Origin: Leptolyngbyaceae cyanobacterium RU_5_1
GTDB lineage: Bacteria; Cyanobacteriota; Cyanobacteriia; Leptolyngbyales; Leptolyngbyaceae
NCBI GenBank assembly: GCA_012034055.1
Contig: JAAUSG010000003.1
Span: 1 to 64,000, forward strand
Direction: 5' to 3'
Length of the DNA: 64,000 bases
A model generated the notes under the pieces. The model did not search any database. It was given only the letters and a program-made list of their open reading frames with translations, and was not told the DNA's origin. Within the stretch, counting starts at the first letter, position 1, and every line of letters begins with the position of its first letter. A program made the translations under genes and the position numbers. Of this stretch, positions 2,263 to 19,390 are shown piece by piece.

Positions 2263-3229
2263 TTATCGTTCTGGTTCATTGCCAAGCCAGATTGCGACCA
2301 GTTCTGGTTGAGATTTCGGTGTAAAAACGCGGGTGGCGTGATAGCTAACTTTTTCTCGCAACCGATAGACCTGTTTCACATCCATGTCCAAAGCTTTTGC
2401 GATCGCTTCTTGAGAACGCCCCTGCAGATAGAGCCGCAACCAGTCCACTGCACGCGGATCCACCTTTTTCTCGACCAGGTAAGACTCAAACCTCTTCTGT
2501 ACGGCGCTGCGGAGTTCCTGCTGCTCCTCCGTTGCTTGAGCATCTTGATACTCAGCAACTGCGCGGGCATCCAGCAGGCTGACGGAACCATCAGCATCAT
2601 CGGGGGCAACCTCTTGGGAGACCAGGCGGATGAAGTCATCGGCAGGAACCTGAGTCATGCCGCCTTTTTGGTTACGCCGCAGGTAATTCACAAACCGGTA
2701 ACAAAGCAGCGGTTGATTCCGAATTGGGCGCAGGCAGTATTCTTCGACGCTGGCTAGCAAGAGTGCATTCCGCAAACGAGGGTCACGGGTGCATTGCGCA
2801 ATCCAGGCGGTCTGCTGCTGCATATAGCGATCGCTCTGCAGGAGCTCCTGGATAATTTCTTCCAGCACGTCTACCACGGTGCGCTGCGATCGCGTGAAAG
2901 TGCAATCCAGGTACGAATTTTGTTGCGAATCAGGAATAGGTTGCTAAGACGTTGAATCAAGCTTTGTAGGCACGCTCTGGCGACATTCCCAGGTAGCGTT
3001 GCCGCAGAATCCGGTAGCGATAATCCATCGCCTGCTCAACAATCTGCCGCTGTGTCGGGTTGAGATCAGTTAGACGAGTCGTGTCTTCTCCAATCAACCA
3101 TCGCACGATACTATCGCGGTTGACGGTGCTCTGGTCCGATAGCTCCGTTCGCAGTCGCGATCGCCATTCATCCGAAAAATTCTCAGACAGTGCCATTTCT
3201 TCAGCCAACATCATAAGTTGCTGCCCCAC
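2263..3229 (-). pseudogene. HetZ-related protein 2-like gene split over three frames by two 1-base deletions
   Basis: The N-terminal piece (3229-2957, 90 aa, with RDSIVRWLIGEDTTRL and YRYRILRQRYLGMSPERAY) and the C-terminal piece (2877-2263, 204 aa, with CLRPIRNQPLLCYRFVNYL and YLQGRSQEAIAKAL) together match the order of cyanobacterial HetZ-related protein 2 as I remember it. The missing middle is readable in a third frame between them (SLIQRLSNLFLIRNKIRTW, then IALSRDR). Restoring one A in the run at about 2963-2965 (minus strand AAA to AAAA) and one C directly after the GCGATCGC at 2886-2893 (minus strand) joins everything into one frame of about 320 codons. HetZ family members are DNA-binding regulators of cell differentiation in filamentous species; this paralogue is widespread and its role is unclear. 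The C-terminus is shorter than the homologues I recall. The breaks may be sequencing errors. Confidence 0.8.
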
Positions 3230-3673
3230 AGTTCTAACTACCCTGCTATAGAGTCTGCATCACAACCCTAATCCAGCGCACTCACCCGCACGGGTAAAAT
3301 CTGGGCTAGGGATTGTAACGAAGCCTGCATCAGTCGGGAAGGTGCCCAGCCAGAGGAGTAGGCATCTGGCTAGCTCTGTTAGGAGTCATTACTTGCCATT
3401 GGATAGCGTTGTACTAACCTTATCCGAAATTGTTGATGATTATATTGCTTGCAGGCATGTTTAGAAGACGCGCGCTCCAGACAATACTTAACTTTTACAA
3501 TTCCGTATTACCCAACCTTTGCTTTATCTTCCTCTACTTTTAATCTATTCCCCTGATTTTTTCGACACCCGGATTGGGTATCTATGCAAGGGGTCAGGTT
3601 TTAGGTGTCAGGTCGTTTTCTGAAACCCGAAATCTGGCACCTGACCCCTTGCGCGTCCTACCTCTTCCAGTCT
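3230..3673. other. Intergenic stretch without a recognised gene
   Basis: This 444 bp gap lies between the HetZ-like gene and aspA, both on the minus strand. It holds an AT-rich part at about 3420-3560 that could contain the HetZ-like promoter, and the large inverted repeat annotated separately at 3586-3652. No tRNA, ORF of convincing composition or riboswitch was seen. Confidence 0.6.
3586..3652. repeat. Inverted repeat with 14-bp perfect arms downstream of aspA
   Basis: The arms GCAAGGGGTCAGGT (3586-3599) and ACCTGACCCCTTGC (3639-3652) are perfect reverse complements around a 39-bp loop containing further related units (AGGTGTCAGGT, CTGGCACCT). The same GGGGTCAGG unit recurs at 17513-17522 and inside the insert at 59988, marking it as a dispersed cyanobacterial repeat. 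It begins 22 bp after the aspA stop and could act as a transcript 3' hairpin, although no T-run follows. Confidence 0.75.
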
Positions 3674-5089
3674 CTACTCCAATTCGGGCAATTGGCTCAT
3701 CTGTTTCAAATTCAGAACGTCTGCTAACGCTTCTGGTGTCATGAGTTGGCGCTCTAAGACAATCTCGCGGAGAGATTTGCCGGTTTCGAGGGACTCTTTG
3801 GCAACAGAGGCAGCATTGAGATAGCCGATATGAGGGTTAAGCGCGGTGACCAGCGCCAGACTTCCCTCTGCAAAGGACAAACAGCGATCGCGATTGGCCG
3901 TAATGCCTTCAATGCAGCGGTGGGTCAGAGCCGCCAGGGTATTGCCCAGAATTTCGATGCTGTGAATCAGGTCGTAGGCAATCAGGGGCATCATCACATT
4001 CAGTTCCAGTTGTCCAGCCTGGGCCGCGAGGGCGATCGCGCCATCATAGCCCATCACCTGAAAGCAAACCATCGAGGTCATCTCCGCCATGACTGGATTG
4101 TACTTACCGGGCATGATTGAAGAACCGGGCTGCACAGGGGACAGTTGGATTTCTTTCAACCCCGTTTTGGGTCCGGAGTCTAGCAGTCGCAGGTCGTGGG
4201 AAATCTTGGCACAATCCTGGGCCAGATTCCGTAACGCACCGGATACATTTACGAACGGAGCCATGCTTTGCATGGCCGCCATCAAATGGGGAGCCGGTCG
4301 CAGGGGTTGATCGATTAGCTCTGAGAGAATTTCGGCAACTCGGAACCGATACTTGGGATGGGTATTCAGTCCGGTTCCGGCAGCGCTACCCCCCAGTCCC
4401 AACAGCGTTAAATCCCCAGCCGCGGTTTCAATCCGAATCATATGTTCGCTGAGGATCTGGGCCCAGGCCCGGAAGTTTTCGCCTAAACGCACCGGAACAG
4501 CATCCTGCAGGTGGGTTCTGCCAGAGCGAATTACGTCTTGAAACTCCCGCCCTTTGTTTTCCAGAGCTGCGATCGCGCCTGAAAGCGCTGGATACAGGGT
4601 GCGCTCCAACGCCAGCAATCCACCAATCCGAATTGCGGTTGGAATCACGTCATTGGTCGATTGTCCATAATTCACATGATCATTGGGATTAACCCGCTTG
4701 TAGTTCCCCTTCTGGTCTGCCAATAGTTCCAAGGCCCGATTGGACAACACCTCATTCACGTTCATGTGATGCGACGTGCCCGCCCCTGCCTGGTACACAT
4801 CCACCACAAACTGGTCGCGCAGGTTGCCATTCAAGATCTCATCGGCTGCCTGCACGATCGCCTGACTGATGTCTTCAGGAATGCAGCCCAGTTCACCATT
4901 GGCGATCGCGGTTGCCTTCTTAATCAGCACGCAGGCATCAACATAGGTGGGCAGAGGCTTAATCCCGCTAATCGGGAAATTCTCTAAGGCTCGCAGCGTT
5001 TGAATCCCGTAATAGACAGTTTCGGGGATTTGCCGCTCTCCCATCGAGTCTTTTTCGATCCGGTATGCAACATTGGTCTGGTCTGTCAT
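3674..5089 (-). CDS. aspA: Aspartate ammonia-lyase (aspartase/fumarase superfamily)
   Basis: 471 residues, full length. The enzyme deaminates L-aspartate reversibly to fumarate and ammonia in the cytosol. The family signature is present as GSSIMPGKYNPVMAEM (about residue 325), with the catalytic serine loop; a tyrosine stands where many aspartases and fumarases have valine. Further conserved segments are AGAGTSHHMNVNEVLSNRA (about 106) and NYGQSTNDVIPTAIRI (about 140), both substrate-binding. A fumarase C assignment is possible from sequence alone, but the AGAGTS..MNVNEV form favours aspartase. It starts at the ATG at 5089; the methyltransferase gene ends only 17 bp upstream, so the two may be co-transcribed. 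Confidence 0.88.
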   Translation of the reverse strand: MTDQTNVAYRIEKDSMGERQIPETVYYGIQTLRALENFPISGIKPLPTYVDACVLIKKATAIANGELGCIPEDISQAIVQAADEILNGNLRDQFVVDVYQAGAGTSHHMNVNEVLSNRALELLADQKGNYKRVNPNDHVNYGQSTNDVIPTAIRIGGLLALERTLYPALSGAIAALENKGREFQDVIRSGRTHLQDAVPVRLGENFRAWAQILSEHMIRIETAAGDLTLLGLGGSAAGTGLNTHPKYRFRVAEILSELIDQPLRPAPHLMAAMQSMAPFVNVSGALRNLAQDCAKISHDLRLLDSGPKTGLKEIQLSPVQPGSSIMPGKYNPVMAEMTSMVCFQVMGYDGAIALAAQAGQLELNVMMPLIAYDLIHSIEILGNTLAALTHRCIEGITANRDRCLSFAEGSLALVTALNPHIGYLNAASVAKESLETGKSLREIVLERQLMTPEALADVLNLKQMSQLPELE

Positions 5090-8151: not shown

Positions 8152-8574
8152 CTAGACTAGAGGTATAACAGCAAGCAATTTATACCAATTTTCGCCTAAC
8201 CACGCAGCTGTATTAGTGACTGGTTTTTTTAGTTTCTCAATTACTTCAACAAAGCCTTGAGCTTTCTTAGCGTAGTTAAGTGCTCGATCCAAAGCCCCAC
8301 CAACTTCGTCTTTGTCCGGTTTTGGTTTTTTTAGTTCCTCTTCCGCATCGTTGAGAGCGTTACTAATTTTTCCACGATCATCTGTCTCTAAAGCAGCTAG
8401 GATTTCGCGTAATCTGTTCAGTTCAGTCGCAATATCGACATCCTTTGGATCAGGTAAACTGACTTGAGACTGCACGTTAGACATCTGCTGATTTATAGCT
8501 TGTCCGACTGCAAACTGACTGCTTACATTTCCTATATCTCCTATGCTGATATTTCCCTGTTCAGATGCTGCCAT
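8152..8574 (-). CDS. Small protein with N-terminal G/hydrophobic motif and helical domain
   Basis: 140 residues of unknown function. Residues 11-29, IGDIGNVSSQFAVGQAINQ, closely match the C-terminal end of the protein encoded just upstream (10 of 19 identical, most of the rest conservative). Residues about 45-120 are charged helices (LNRLREILAALETDDRGKIS, then DAEEELKKPKPDKDEVGGAL). The C-terminus, AAWLGENWYKLLAVIPLV, is hydrophobic and may insert in a membrane. I recall this helical module at the ends of other bacterial multidomain proteins, where it looks like a signalling adaptor, but no role is established. The gene is 65 bp downstream of the FHA-like gene on the same strand, so the two are probably one operon. 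Confidence 0.6.
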   Translation of the reverse strand: MAASEQGNISIGDIGNVSSQFAVGQAINQQMSNVQSQVSLPDPKDVDIATELNRLREILAALETDDRGKISNALNDAEEELKKPKPDKDEVGGALDRALNYAKKAQGFVEVIEKLKKPVTNTAAWLGENWYKLLAVIPLV

Positions 8575-8639
8575 TTGATTCTCCCAATTTGTTGTAAATT
8601 CATGTAACCCTACTAAAGGCCGTACTACTAAGTTGTCGA

Positions 8640-10616
8640 TTAAGTTGTCGATTGGTTTGAGATTTGGGATATTTCTTGAGAAATACTTGATCCAATAGCT
8701 AACTGACCCGAAATATTACCAATATTACCAACGGTAATATGAGTCGAACTGTCAATAATTCGAGATGAGATTCTTTCAAATTGAGATGTATCAATACCTT
8801 TTTGTCTAAGCAGGTCAATTGTACTTCTAAATATTGCTTTCTGTATTGCCTTCCAGTACATGAAAACATCTTGAGTGCCGTAATAATCAAGATTAATGCT
8901 AAAGTCTCGATTTAAGTTGCGGTAGCGATTTAGAAACCAATTTAGAATTAGCAAAACAAGAATAAGAGGAATTAAGATGACACTCAGAGGCAACAAAATA
9001 ATTAGCAATATAGGGTTGGTCAAAACTTTCCTTAAACTCACCCTTGAACTGGTAGAGCTTCCACCCTTTTTTGCAGCTTTTCTTGATTGTTTATTTTGAC
9101 CTTGATATGGATCAAGATTTAAAGGCTCTGCTGCAAATTCACGTAACGTTTGAGCAATTCCATAATTATATTCCTCTCTAAATTCGGCTAATCGCCGCTG
9201 TTTATTATCATCAGTTCGCCATGAGACAATATTGGAAATGAAGAAACCAATATGCCACACTGAGGCTACAGCATAGAGAAAAGGTAACAGAACAATGGCA
9301 ACCAAAACTGTTCTACCTAAACGAGTAAGATGGCTGTCATCTAAGGTGGGAGCTAAACTAAACCGTTTACGATCAATACCAGTCAGAATGTATGCAGCAG
9401 ATTCTACAAAAGTAATTTCCCCAGCATTGTAAAATCTAAGGAAATGAGAAAGAACGTAATCACGTTTAGTGTCGATGTACTGGTATACTCGATACGCTCT
9501 TTTTCTACTTCCCTGTTCCTCTTCTTTCTGATCCCATAATGGATCATCGATAGACATTACAGATGGTCTTGTCATGGGGTGACTAAGAAGTTTGCCATCA
9601 GCCTCCAATTCAAAACCATCTATAAATAATTGGGACAACCTCTGGAGTTCTGGTAAATGCAGCCTATCGACTTCTTGATCAACTGCTTGATAAAACTCGT
9701 TAACTGGGATTTCTACACAATCTAAGTGATTATTCTTATCCTTAGAATCTGTTTTTGCTAAAAGATTTCGCTCTATTGGGATTGTCCAACTTGACTCCGG
9801 AATTGGTTCTCCAGCACCGACAAATGGTTTGAACCCTCCAAACGTAATGATGTTTTGGGCGGGTTCAGTTTGATAAATGTGTTGCCTGAAGTAACTTACT
9901 AGAGCCTCAAAGGATTTAATACGAAATTCAGGATTGTAGTATTTCTTGAGAAATCGACGAGCCAGAAACCATCGAAGATAAATCATCTCAAAAGCCATCA
10001 GTCCCCCTGCAACAAGCGCTAAGAAGAGCTGAAGATATAGATTGAGTCCAGCCGCTAAATATAGCAAAACTTGAATAGTAAAGATAATAAAAACTGCAAT
10101 AGAAAATATCAGTGTTAATAGAACTGACTGTGTCGCGTGGATGGCAACCTGATCAAGGTCAATACTGGATTTTGGAATCTTACTGGTGTAAGGGTCGCTA
10201 CGCAGTTGATTGAGCAGTTCAAATCCCCCCACAATTCCTTCCCGATAAGCATAACCCGATAACAACCGCGTGGATGTAGTCAGAAGATTTTGGGAGGGTA
10301 TTGGCGTAGTGAGGTTGACTTCTGGCGTAGCCAATAAGACTAAGTTCTCTTGAGTAAGCTTAATGCGGGTTTGTTGCTTTATGGGCACTGCATCAGTCTC
10401 AAGCGACTGATGGTTAACAAAAATGCTTGAAGCACTATTTAGCCTTTTGATATACCAAATGCCATCCTTACAGCTTAGTTCCAGTTGACGATCAGATTTG
10501 CCATCGCTACATGGCAAGCAGATATCACAAGAGTGAGCAGTTCCTGTTATGTAACTGAAGGTTGGTTCAAGCGTCCAGGTTAGTCCGGTTTGTTCTAAGG
10601 AAACTTCTAATCTCAC
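8640..10616 (-). CDS. FHA-like membrane protein with C-terminal shared motif
   Basis: 658 residues. Residues 1-95 look like a degenerate forkhead-associated (FHA, phosphothreonine-binding) fold: SYITGTAHSCDICLP, LELSCKDGIWYIKRL, SIFVNHQSL. Two close membrane helices lie at about 165-215 (LLTLIFSIAVFIIFTIQVLL and LFLALVAGGLMAFEMIY), another near 440-465 and one near 540-565 (ILLIILLPLSVILIPLILVL). Between them are soluble segments with no recognised enzyme motif. The last 30 residues contain VGNIGNISGQLAIGSSISQ (629-647), which pairs with the N-terminus of the downstream protein. It is divergent from the kinase-like gene across about 200 bp. The function is unknown; a membrane signalling scaffold is the inference. 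Confidence 0.6.
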   Translation of the reverse strand: MRLEVSLEQTGLTWTLEPTFSYITGTAHSCDICLPCSDGKSDRQLELSCKDGIWYIKRLNSASSIFVNHQSLETDAVPIKQQTRIKLTQENLVLLATPEVNLTTPIPSQNLLTTSTRLLSGYAYREGIVGGFELLNQLRSDPYTSKIPKSSIDLDQVAIHATQSVLLTLIFSIAVFIIFTIQVLLYLAAGLNLYLQLFLALVAGGLMAFEMIYLRWFLARRFLKKYYNPEFRIKSFEALVSYFRQHIYQTEPAQNIITFGGFKPFVGAGEPIPESSWTIPIERNLLAKTDSKDKNNHLDCVEIPVNEFYQAVDQEVDRLHLPELQRLSQLFIDGFELEADGKLLSHPMTRPSVMSIDDPLWDQKEEEQGSRKRAYRVYQYIDTKRDYVLSHFLRFYNAGEITFVESAAYILTGIDRKRFSLAPTLDDSHLTRLGRTVLVAIVLLPFLYAVASVWHIGFFISNIVSWRTDDNKQRRLAEFREEYNYGIAQTLREFAAEPLNLDPYQGQNKQSRKAAKKGGSSTSSRVSLRKVLTNPILLIILLPLSVILIPLILVLLILNWFLNRYRNLNRDFSINLDYYGTQDVFMYWKAIQKAIFRSTIDLLRQKGIDTSQFERISSRIIDSSTHITVGNIGNISGQLAIGSSISQEISQISNQSTT

Positions 10617-10816: not shown

Positions 10817-12802
10817 ATGTTAACTTCTCTCAATCCAGGTTCAACTGTACGCGATCGCTATGTAGTCCGAGAAATTCTGTTAGAAGGTGATTCCATGCAG
10901 GTTTTCCTTGCTGAAGACAAGGATTCTCACGGTAAAAAGTGTCTGTTAACAAAAGTTTCTTGCGATCGCCCTGACGGGAAGGTAGATACCCTTCCGAAGC
11001 CCGGAAACCCCAAAGTCCCTAAAGTCAAAGATTCATTTTCTGACGATACAGGAGTATTCATTATTCAAGACTACAAAGAGGTGCAAAACTCTTCGTCTTG
11101 GAATGAGTATGATGTTGTTCAGTTTCTTAATCATGTTCTGCCAATCCTCTCCTTCTCACAGAGTTCTGGATTGTTGGGGAGACAAATTAACCTTATCCAA
11201 GATCTTCACAACCTGGCAAAAACAGCCCTAACTTTCCTAACAGATGGAAATTCTGAGCAACAACATACCCAACGACATACCGATGAATCAAAAAGCTTGA
11301 CTTTGAATCCTCAGCGTCTCAGCAATCAGCGCACAGCTGTACTGAATAAGATGCTGGCTCAGGATTTAGATAATTCTTTTACTAGCGCGGATGAAGCTCT
11401 GCAAGCGTTGAATACGATTCCTTCGTCTCGTGTTGAGAACGTGCCATTTCCTCCTCAAATTTTATGGATTGCAGGGGGAATACTTGGAGGATTGCTTATC
11501 CTAACAGCTATTGTTGGGGTTGTGCTTTTTAAGAAAACTGAATCTATGCCTTCTCAAGTGTCAGAGCCTTTAGATTCTGAGTTCCAGTGCCCAACCGGGG
11601 AAAATATTTTGGCTCTCGCTTGTGGTACTCCTGTGAGTGACATAGATTCGAGTGACTTTGATCAAGGGGTTCTGACTGTTAGGTTTGAGCCAAATGGTAA
11701 ATCTGATGATCGGCTCACTATTTATAGTCAGCCCACAAATGTTGAAGGTATGAGTGTTAATGCGAATACAATTACTTACAAAGGTACCAAGATTGCCAGT
11801 TTTACAGAAGGTACAGGTACAATTCCCTTAAAAGTTAACTTCAACGCCAATGCAACTCAGGAAGCAGTTAGAACATTATTGAGTCATGTTGTTTATCGTA
11901 ATGATTCAGATAAACCCAGTACTGGAACTCGGATTGTGCAAGCTCAGTTAGCTGATGGTGACGGTGGCACCAGTCAAAATGCTACTGGATTAATCAGTGT
12001 CAATACTGTTAACAAAGTTCCTGTATTAACCGTTCCTAATGATCAAATTGTTGAGGAAGATAAAGAGTTGCCGATTAAAGGTATCAGTGTTCAGGACTCT
12101 GATATCGGTAGTGAAAATATTGTTGTTGCCCTCAGCGTCGATAGAGGTGTTCTAGTTATTAACGTGCCTAATGGTGTACCGTTATTTGATATTAAAGGCA
12201 ATAAATCTAAAACCGTCACCCTTGAAGGTTCGATTAACTTGATTAATAAGACCTTCAAGGGTAATAAGGCAGTCGTTTATCAGAGTGAGCCGAACTATCA
12301 TGGCACCGTTTCTATTACAGTAACTGCTACTGATGGTGGTAAAAAGATAGCAGGGGGTGCAGGTGCTTTAGTCTTTCCACCTAATGCTCTGGAGCCTAAA
12401 ACTGATAGTCGAATCATCCGTATTGCTGTTAATCCCAACAATGACCCACCTATTATTGGTACCCCTAGAGGTTCAAATCCTCCTCAATCAAATTCTGATC
12501 AACAAGCTGGAGATAGTGTCAACAAGTCGGCACCAATTCAACCTCAACAGCCAGGTCAAGGTGACAGCACTGCAAATGCCACCATTGTGGGAGAGCCAGG
12601 GGAAAAGAACATTCGCTCTGGTCCTGGAACAAATTATAAGGTTCGTCACATTGCCTATCCTGGTAACCGTGTTCGGGTCATAGGTAAAGCTTACGAAGGG
12701 AGTTTCCCGTGGTATAAAGTCTATTTTCCATCCTCTAGAGCTGATGGCTGGATAGCGGGTCACTTGATTGAAATTGATCCTGGTACTCAACCTGCTCCTT
12801 AA
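10817..12802 (+). CDS. Membrane protein: kinase-like N-lobe, cadherin-like repeats, SH3b domain
   Basis: 661 residues. The N-terminus (GSTVRDRYVVREILLEGDSM, then VFLAEDKDSHGKK) copies the beginning of cyanobacterial Ser/Thr kinases, but the glycine loop is altered and no HRD or DFG motif follows, so it is at most a pseudokinase remnant. A membrane helix lies at about 216-240 (ILWIAGGILGGLLILTAIVG). The outside part contains two cadherin/VCBS-like repeats (about 290-390 and 400-545, with DGDGGTSQNATG and LTVPNDQIVEEDKELPI), then a Pro/Gln/Ser linker and a C-terminal bacterial SH3b domain (about 590-655, NIRSGPGTNYKVRHIAYPG). SH3b domains often bind cell-wall peptides. The gene could relay an envelope signal to the divergent FHA-like protein; that is inference. 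Confidence 0.65.
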   Translation: MLTSLNPGSTVRDRYVVREILLEGDSMQVFLAEDKDSHGKKCLLTKVSCDRPDGKVDTLPKPGNPKVPKVKDSFSDDTGVFIIQDYKEVQNSSSWNEYDVVQFLNHVLPILSFSQSSGLLGRQINLIQDLHNLAKTALTFLTDGNSEQQHTQRHTDESKSLTLNPQRLSNQRTAVLNKMLAQDLDNSFTSADEALQALNTIPSSRVENVPFPPQILWIAGGILGGLLILTAIVGVVLFKKTESMPSQVSEPLDSEFQCPTGENILALACGTPVSDIDSSDFDQGVLTVRFEPNGKSDDRLTIYSQPTNVEGMSVNANTITYKGTKIASFTEGTGTIPLKVNFNANATQEAVRTLLSHVVYRNDSDKPSTGTRIVQAQLADGDGGTSQNATGLISVNTVNKVPVLTVPNDQIVEEDKELPIKGISVQDSDIGSENIVVALSVDRGVLVINVPNGVPLFDIKGNKSKTVTLEGSINLINKTFKGNKAVVYQSEPNYHGTVSITVTATDGGKKIAGGAGALVFPPNALEPKTDSRIIRIAVNPNNDPPIIGTPRGSNPPQSNSDQQAGDSVNKSAPIQPQQPGQGDSTANATIVGEPGEKNIRSGPGTNYKVRHIAYPGNRVRVIGKAYEGSFPWYKVYFPSSRADGWIAGHLIEIDPGTQPAP

Positions 12803-17670: not shown

Positions 17671-19390
17671 GTGCAACGACCTTCCATTCGCCAAATTCAT
17701 CCCTTTCCGTTCCTCCTCGCTCTAGGACTGATTGCCTGTCAGGCAGAGCAGCCTGAACCGACTCGTCCTGCTCCATTGCCCCAGGATAAGCAGATTCAGG
17801 TCTATACGAACCATGAACCGGCATCAAGCTACACAGAGCCGTATCGGAAATACACTCGTGATGGCGATAACCTGGAACAAATTATCATTGAGGCAATCTC
17901 CACAGCCCAGTCAATGGTTGATGTAGCGGTACAAGAGTTGCGCTTGCCTGGAGTTGCCCAGGCGTTGGTGGAACGGCACCGGGCCGGGGTAAAGGTGCGG
18001 GTGATTCTGGAAAATACGTACTCTCGCCCCTTTAGCCAATTCATGTCCGAGGAGGTAACCGCATTACCCCAACGCGATCGCGATCGCTACAACGAAGCTC
18101 GGCAGCTTATTGACCTGAGCGGCGACAATCAGCTTGGGCCGGATGAAATCAATCAACGGGATGCGCTGGTTATCTTAGATAACGCCAACATTCCTCGAAT
18201 TGACGACACGGCAGATGGCTCCGCAGGCAGCAACCTGATGCACCACAAATTTCTGCTGGTAGATGGGCGGACTGTGATTGTGACCTCGGCTAATCTGACC
18301 ACGAGTGATGTGCATGGTGATTTCAAGTCGCCCAGTAGCCGGGGCAACGCCAACAATTTGCTGAAAATTGAGAGTCCAGAGTTAGCGCGCTGTTTACGCA
18401 AGAGTTCAACCTGATGTGGGGAGATGGACCGGGTGGCAGACCCAATAGCCAATTCGGAGTCAAGAAACTATTTCGTCCCGCCCGTCAAGTAACGATCGGC
18501 TCATCTGTGGTTGAAGTTCAATTTTCGCCAACTTCCAATTCAATCCCGTGGGAGCAAAGCAGCAATGGTCTGATTGGTAAAACGGTGAACATTGCCACCC
18601 AGTCAATTCAAATGGCACTGTTTGTCTTTTCCGATCAACCTCTGGTTAATCTGCTGGATGCAGTTCACCAAAAAGGGGCTGATATTAAGGCTTTGATTGA
18701 TCCTGGGTTTGCCTATCGTCCCTACAGTGAAGCACTGGATATGTTGGGCATTACGCTGGCAGAGGATTGTCGGTATGAGCCAAGTAATCGTCCCTGGCAG
18801 CGTGCGATCGCTCTGTTGGAGTGCCCCGGATGCCGCCCGGCGATCTGCTCCACCACAAATTCGGGATTGTAGACCAGAAAATTGTGATCACAGGCTCCCA
18901 CAACTGGACTGCTGCTGCCAATACTGGAAATGATGAAACCGTCTTAGTCGTTCATAATCCAACGGTTACCGCTCACTATCAGCGCGAGTTTGAGCGACTT
19001 TATACCAATGCCATTCTGGGAATTCCGCCTGCCATCCAGAAAAAGGCAGAGGCTCAAGTCCGGCAATGTCAGGTGGCGCGTTCAGCCTCTACTGCACAAA
19101 CTCAGGCTGCAAATCGAAATTCAGCAGTCCCACAGCGTGTACCAGCTCCGTCCTCAACGGCTCCATCAAACTTGCCTCGCTCGGCTGCCAATTCGCCAAG
19201 TCAGCGAGTGAACCTCAACACAGCAACCCAGGCAGAGCTAGAAGAATTACCGGGTGTCGGACCCGGTTTGGCGAAACGAATTATTGCTGCTCGTCAACAG
19301 AAGCCATTCAGCTCTCTGGCAGACCTCGATCGCGTCTCTGGCATCGGCCCCAAGTTGCTAACTAAGCTGAAAAACCGAGTTACCTGGTAA
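17671..19390 (+). pseudogene. Secreted phospholipase D-like protein with helix-hairpin-helix tail, two frameshifts
   Basis: Three overlapping frames (17671-18414, 18414-18872, 18821-19390) make one protein. The start is a lipoprotein signal with lipobox LIACQ (residue 24). Two phospholipase D HKD motifs follow: MHHKFLLVDG (about 190) and LLHHKFGIVDQK in the third frame. Between the halves of domain one lies an EF-hand-like calcium loop, DLSGDNQLGPDE. After a Ser/Pro/Ala linker comes a ComEA-type helix-hairpin-helix pair (VNLNTATQAELEELPGVGPG) that binds DNA. The order suggests an exported nuclease of the PLD family. One C is missing after GCGCGC at 18390, and one base after the GCGATCGC at 18804-18811; restoring both gives a single reading frame of about 570 codons. 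These breaks may be sequencing errors. Confidence 0.85.

Follow-up and report, generated by a model that had tools for sequence, protein, structure and literature searches.

A pair-specific terminal motif shared by adjacent genes for a polytopic membrane protein and a small helical protein in Cyanobacteria and Actinomycetota

Results and discussion

The gene pair and its surroundings

The window analysed here is a stretch of 64,000 nucleotides from Leptolyngbyaceae cyanobacterium RU_5_1. It harbors two neighbouring genes, one for a large membrane protein and one for a small helical protein, whose products carry a similar motif at opposite ends (Table 1). The ribosome-binding site upstream of the ATG of the small gene is a good one, and no terminator-like site was found in the gap between the two genes, which are likely co-transcribed. 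The large protein contains hydrophobic stretches near residues 157-215, 430-448 and 526-565, consistent with several membrane passes. Together with the Pfam match to its FHA domain (E = 3e-8), these three regions bear out the earlier note, which had described a polytopic protein with an FHA-like domain.

Table 1 Features of the gene pair and its divergent neighbour in the window
Feature	Position	Strand	Evidence or remark
Polytopic membrane protein, 658 aa, N-terminal FHA domain	8640..10616	(-)	ORF; proposed receptor/nucleator
FHA domain, residues 23-87 of the 658 aa protein	10356..10550	(-)	Pfam PF00498, E = 3.2e-8
C-terminal motif of the 658 aa protein, HITVGNIGNISGQLAIGSSISQEISQISNQ	8652..8741	(-)	Local alignment, motif profile
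Intergenic gap of 65 nt, ribosome-binding site GGGAG, without terminator-like site	8575..8639	(-)	
Helical partner protein, 140 aa	8152..8574	(-)	ORF; proposed effector or adaptor
N-terminal motif of the 140 aa protein, NISIGDIGNVSSQFAVGQAINQQMSNVQSQ	8464..8553	(-)	Local alignment, motif profile
Helical module of the 140 aa protein, residues 46-140, KPDK signature, WLGENWYKLL tail	8155..8439	(-)	
Divergent neighbour: pseudokinase remnant, one TM helix, C-terminal region with SH3_3 domain	10817..12802	(+)	

The genome is a cyanobacterial draft, and there are frameshifts elsewhere in the window. At 17671-19390 on the (+) strand, the coding sequence of a PLD-like nuclease, which has a helix-hairpin-helix end, is spread over three reading frames, with both halves matching PLDc_2; this is either a broken gene or an assembly error. 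The ATP synthase alpha gene of the same genome also appears as two ORFs (contig C329 of G000, near 63300-64820; locus L038, 3303-4819), which suggests sequence errors in the draft.

The shared motif

The C-terminal segment VGNIGNISGQLAIGSSISQ of the 658 aa protein and the N-terminal segment IGDIGNVSSQFAVGQAINQ of the 140 aa protein are identical in 10 of 19 positions, and both the ORFs and the alignment agree with what the earlier note had reported about this motif. In a local alignment the likeness extends over 30 residues and scores 84, a value that was reached by none of 20,000 shuffles of the 50-residue head of the 140 aa protein. When C-terminal tails were scored against N-terminal heads, this pair ranked first among the 2,756 ordered protein pairs in the window. 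In a ranking of 332 neighbouring ORF pairs, drawn from the window and from related loci, pairs of the membrane-protein family took all of the first nine places. A second high-scoring combination in the window (17671-18414 and 18821-19390, score 68) proved to be the single disrupted PLD nuclease gene mentioned above and was rejected as a motif pair.

A motif profile built from two rows, the two window copies, found these two sites alone in the 5.6-Mb genome (E = 1.3e-16 and 6.3e-16), the next hit having an E-value of 2.2. The earlier note had named as grounds for giving up the idea of a pair that many unrelated proteins would carry the motif at one and the same end; this was not seen. A search of 57 relatives with the same two-row profile gave no match with an E-value below 0.018.

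Loci with related membrane proteins

Homologs of the membrane protein are few and scattered. We obtained 14 non-redundant loci, nine from Cyanobacteria and five from Actinomycetota. Scanning 84,980 species genomes for two conserved patterns yielded six cyanobacterial loci, and two further ones came from sampled cyanobacterial genomes (L033 from G005, in which the N-terminal half of the membrane gene is frameshifted, and L059 from G405). The actinobacterial sample consists of five plasmid-borne loci found by tblastn on plasmid records, four from Streptomyces (L082, L084, L085 and L086) and one from Nonomuraea (L083). Several organisms of the whole set are represented by metagenome assemblies. 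No members of the family were found in a phage search.

All loci were collected via the membrane protein alone, except L059, which was first reached with profiles of the small protein. Since the membrane-protein profile matches L059 as well, the collection is unbiased towards having a paired partner. The conserved core of the membrane protein could not be named by sequence searches against Pfam, NCBIfam and PDB, and neither Pfam nor NCBIfam has a model for this family. Weak PDB matches to this core and to the helical module of the small protein were set aside as chance matches between helical sequences.

Pairing and co-variation of the motifs

Each of the 14 loci has a neighbouring gene for a protein of 118-203 aa, which carries a matching motif close to its N-terminus and a helical module after it. 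The gene for the small protein comes after the membrane gene, but before it in L030 and L031. The motif is sharply divergent among the loci, yet it is matched inside each pair. For example, tail and head are FAGGYTKQGNVYTGTVN and FAGGYTEKGDVYTGEVN in L026, GIMVSGGNFSANQVAAGAGAKAVQ and GIQVSGGVFHANQVAVGTGATAVQ in L029, GSIAGGHTVAQTNQT and GPIAGGYHVQQTNQT in L085, GSNFGNAPGSNFGNAPGSSF and GTNYGNAPGSNFGHAPGSHF in L083, AGAVGVGDHNIVSN and AGAVAIGDYNQVTN in L086, and DSTFAVGTHATAS and GSTFAIGSHASAV in L084.

We compared all tails with all heads of the 14 loci and found a mean score of 74 for cognate and 37 for non-cognate combinations; with one locus per motif class, the means were 76 and 31. The cognate sum was equalled by 0 of 1,000,000 permuted pairings in the full set and by 0 of 1,000,000 in the reduced one, counts that are not strict probabilities because the loci are related to each other. 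The cognate head was the best or second-best match to its tail in 14 of 14 cases, and the two second-best cases are swaps within one motif class.

Given this limit on the permutation counts, most weight falls on the comparison of two close relatives, L084 and L086. Their cores are 53% identical and their motifs differ; the cognate scores are 60 and 64, while the swapped combinations score 34 and 39. The same holds for the window and L026 (cognate 84 and 79, swapped 19 and 33), and the window and L027 likewise have different motifs, each fitting its own partner.

The codons at identical motif residues are mostly not the same. The window pair uses the same codon at 4 of 13 such residues, which argues that the match is kept at the protein level; the corresponding numbers are 5 of 14 in L026 and 4 of 19 in L029. 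The repeats of L083 share the codon at 23 of 24 matched residues, and in that one case the match may stem from a recent duplication. Judged from the sequences, the two motifs are truly paired; the pairing is specific to each pair, has been conserved across 14 loci from two phyla and is kept at the protein level.

The FHA domain and the neighbouring genes

Besides the window protein, an N-terminal FHA domain was detected by profile in L026 (E = 4e-13) and L083 (E = 7e-14), and by alignment in L027. The residues of the FHA pocket (Gly-Arg, Ser-x-x-His and Asn) are all present in L083; none of the three cyanobacterial members has the Arg, and the window protein is missing the His.

The three cyanobacterial loci with an FHA domain (window, L026 and L027) are adjoined by a pseudokinase gene that is homologous among them and was absent from the other cyanobacterial loci within the flanks that were read. 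Its kinase-like domain is devoid of catalytic residues, with HRN or HGN in place of HRD and NCG or NFG in place of DFG, and in the window neighbour the catalytic and DFG region is missing altogether. The domain is followed by one TM helix and a C-terminal region that is probably extracytoplasmic. The combination of FHA domain and pseudokinase suggests a sensing unit. The divergent neighbour is a possible sensor and a putative member of the system.

A third gene is also seen in Streptomyces loci (L084 6338-7264, L086 5518-6444, L082 6825-7535). It encodes an apparent single-pass membrane protein, which has a PsbP-like match in L084 and a zinc ribbon in L082. This protein may be a sensor, as an analogue of the product of the cyanobacterial pseudokinase gene.

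The small helical partner and its kin

The helical module of the 140 aa protein carries a KP[DN]K signature, and a low-confidence AF2 model predicts four to five helices; the AF2 models (pLDDT 52 and 54) leave the motif disordered. The module is 55-64% identical to those of relatives that either stand alone beside genes for nSTAND1 NTPases or are fused behind CHAT caspase-like domains, and several of the CHAT-fused relatives themselves adjoin nSTAND1 genes. At these kin loci, the motif ahead of the module matches the N-terminal end of the protein encoded next door. In a test of eight kin pairs, the observed sum was reached by the true pairing alone among 40,320 permutations. The neighbours of the kin modules comprise nSTAND1, iSTAND, FGE-sulfatase and GUN4 proteins. 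The small protein of the window thus belongs to an NLR-associated motif module, here partnered with a membrane protein. A wholesale swap of its motif appeared insecure, as its head is still similar to the heads of NLR-paired kin (scores 28-53).

A second module class (L028-L033) is related to that of the window (hhalign probability 90%). The modules of L029 (E = 3e-9) and of the window (E = 5e-4) match PDC-M14B, a candidate defence model of PADLOC, in both cases over the C-terminal ~100 of the 267 positions of the model alone. Searches of Pfam, NCBIfam and PDB found no name for the module. TRADD-N was dropped as a candidate, since there was no profile match and TRADD-N has beta-strands, and a HeLo match in one relative (E = 0.046) fell short of the cut-off and was taken as chance.

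The earlier note had proposed that the 140 aa protein, with its hydrophobic tail, could be a membrane-acting effector. This tail is weak (best 19-residue Kyte-Doolittle mean 0.88; 0.5-1.7 in relatives), and the CHAT fusions put the module behind a likely effector, both of which weigh against that proposal; a membrane-acting effector is still a possible role.

Further motif-bearing proteins were observed. In the window genome, contig C205 of G000 (3166-4833; L014, L037) encodes a 145 aa helical protein and, after it, a GUN4-domain protein whose N-terminal motif is related; this second motif pair does not cross-match with that of the window. Tandem repeats of the VQGDNNQ type occur in pentapeptide-repeat or small helical proteins of L041, L048, L052, L054 and L055, and several of these proteins adjoin iSTAND or FGE-sulfatase proteins with matching repeats. 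In L003, L004, L006 and L066, CHAT caspase-like proteins carry the motif in the middle of the protein with the helical module behind it. The product of the gene next to the CHAT gene has a matching N-terminal motif in L003, L006 and L066, and is an nSTAND1 protein in the latter two.

Proposed mechanism and alternative explanations

The motifs have a distinct composition. Together, G, N, S, T and Q account for 54% of their residues (background 25%), charged residues for 7% (22%) and Leu for 0.6% (12.6%); they are also rich in V and poor in Pro. Known signalling amyloids have a similar composition, with the same residues in excess and few charges, Leu or Pro. Moreover, the two ends of a pair are kept alike rather than complementary, as expected from homotypic stacking. 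On the basis of these like-evolving ends and the composition of the motif, we propose that clustered C-tails of the membrane protein seed the motif of the small protein. We regard such a motif-templated (amyloid- or RHIM-like) recruitment of the small partner by a non-NLR membrane receptor as reasonably probable.

The two proteins would then act as receptor and partner, coupled by matched homotypic motifs as in the amyloid signalling pairs of NLR systems, but with the polytopic membrane protein as receptor, a role we infer from its position and topology. Once the membrane protein is switched on, in the FHA subfamily perhaps via the FHA domain and the pseudokinase/ectodomain neighbour, its cytoplasmic C-tails would cluster and nucleate a cross-beta (RHIM-like) assembly. 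This assembly would template the motif at the head of the small helical protein and so recruit and oligomerise that protein. The assembled helical module would give the output, for which a response at the membrane or cell death is most likely, or would serve as a scaffold. In this scheme we infer the cross-beta templating and amyloid structure, the direction of signalling, the trigger and the output.

It is possible, at somewhat less than even chances, that the small protein is instead an adaptor or inhibitor that caps or holds the tails of the membrane protein, and that the membrane protein itself (e.g. as a channel) or the product of a third gene provides the output. The weak hydrophobicity of the small protein, the diverse partner classes and the CHAT fusions, with the same module behind a likely effector, would fit this role. 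However, the membrane protein is without a recognised enzymatic or channel domain, and no other effector is conserved beside all loci.

We consider it unlikely that the motifs form a specific non-amyloid dock, in which each end contributes one beta-arch or beta-roll rung to a finite complex, be it a heterodimer or a small ring, and the small protein is thereby held at the membrane protein with no self-propagating templating. Any like-with-like interaction would give pair-specific co-variation, and motifs such as STFAIGSHASAV resemble beta-roll rungs, which are known from YadA-type heads. However, finite docks usually evolve complementary surfaces, not near-identical ones; in addition, the kin of the module follow the same principle with nSTAND1 NTPases, and related bacterial motifs have been reported to form fibrils (PMC7889193).

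Finally, the biased composition of the motif and the near-identical codons of the L083 repeats might suggest that the similarity of tail and head is a functionless by-product of local DNA duplication or low-complexity drift, but this highly improbable reading is already contradicted by the occurrence of the motif at the same two ends in 14 of 14 loci from two phyla, by the mostly different encoding of identical residues in other pairs (4/13, 5/14 and 4/19), and by the finding of the motif nowhere else in the window genome.

Templated recruitment by a membrane receptor may be part of a wider picture, for which we see about even chances: an NLR-independent, membrane-receptor-driven amyloid signalling across Cyanobacteria and Actinomycetota, in which the motifs diverge very fast between loci but keep their match inside each pair, with the result that parallel systems of one cell are insulated, and one cyanobacterial branch is wired to an FHA/pseudokinase/ectodomain sensor.

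Comparison with known systems

NLR-independent signalling amyloids of bacteria are an open question in the field (PMC7889193), and the window pair and its 13 relatives provide a concrete, testable candidate. With a transmembrane receptor, a membrane signal could be relayed through protein templating, and naturally diverged pairs, e.g. L084 and L086, are ready material for asking what sets templating specificity. The pairing points to a membrane-based version of amyloid-like signalling, hitherto described mainly for bacterial NLR immune receptors.

The nearest precedent is that of the bacterial amyloid signalling sequences (BASS), reportedly found in Bell/NLR gene pairs by Dyrka et al. 2020. 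A literature search gave no description of the membrane-protein family, and a mention in the supplements of the 2020 BASS paper is possible. The Bell/NLR pairs are motif-matched and occur in Actinobacteria and Cyanobacteria, and their tested motifs form fibrils and prions (PMC7889193). The pairs described here resemble them in the adjacent genes with a motif of 20-30 (to 40) residues at the ends of both proteins (14 of 14 loci), the many divergent motif families that are each matched within a pair, the small helical partner, and the occurrence in Actinobacteria and Cyanobacteria. However, the BASS receptor is an NLR with an N-terminal motif, while the proposed receptor here is a polytopic membrane protein that has an FHA domain in some loci and none in others, bears the motif at its C-terminus and gave no STAND, NACHT or NB-ARC match by profile; an NLR partner is found for relatives of the small protein only. 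The Bell motif is C-terminal, whereas here the motif is N-terminal to the helical module, a contrast that concerns the position of the motif. The working principle looks the same as in BASS, but the pairs have neither an NLR nor a Bell layout and so fall outside BASS as defined. The earlier note, which took such a motif as the hallmark of amyloid signalling pairs, was largely right; the conserved, pair-specific motif stands with 14 loci, but membership of the pair in the published BASS set is not supported.

The EACC1-caspase and TRADD-N/EACC2 conflict systems (PMC7159879, PMC8195603) are similar in having two genes, a small constant component and a distribution in multicellular bacteria, and the small protein has kin with caspase-like partners. 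Neither a TRADD-N nor an EACC domain was detected, and the small component of EACC1 has one strongly conserved TM helix, in contrast to the small protein here, which has none (best 19-residue hydropathy mean 0.5-1.7).

With the RHIM of RIPK1/RIPK3, the fungal PP motif and BASS3, the pairs have in common a short motif present in both partners, with a glycine-centred core and beta-branched residues. The core differs, being mostly h-A-x-G and not h-Q-h-G, and any homology to these motifs would be putative. The h-A-x-G core, an echo of RHIM, is found in 8 of 14 tails and 8 of 14 heads (16 of 28 ends). In the window the cores are L-A-I-G and F-A-V-G, unlike the RHIM core [VI]-Q-[VIL]-G; a plain RHIM reading was rejected, as there is no h-Q-h-G core.

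The cyanobacterial nSTAND1 NTPase pairs and CHAT-motif-helix fusions identified in this work share the module (55-64% identity) and the matching of motifs between neighbours. They differ in that the motif matches N-terminus to N-terminus or lies mid-protein, with an NTPase as partner, whereas here the partner is the C-tail of a membrane protein.
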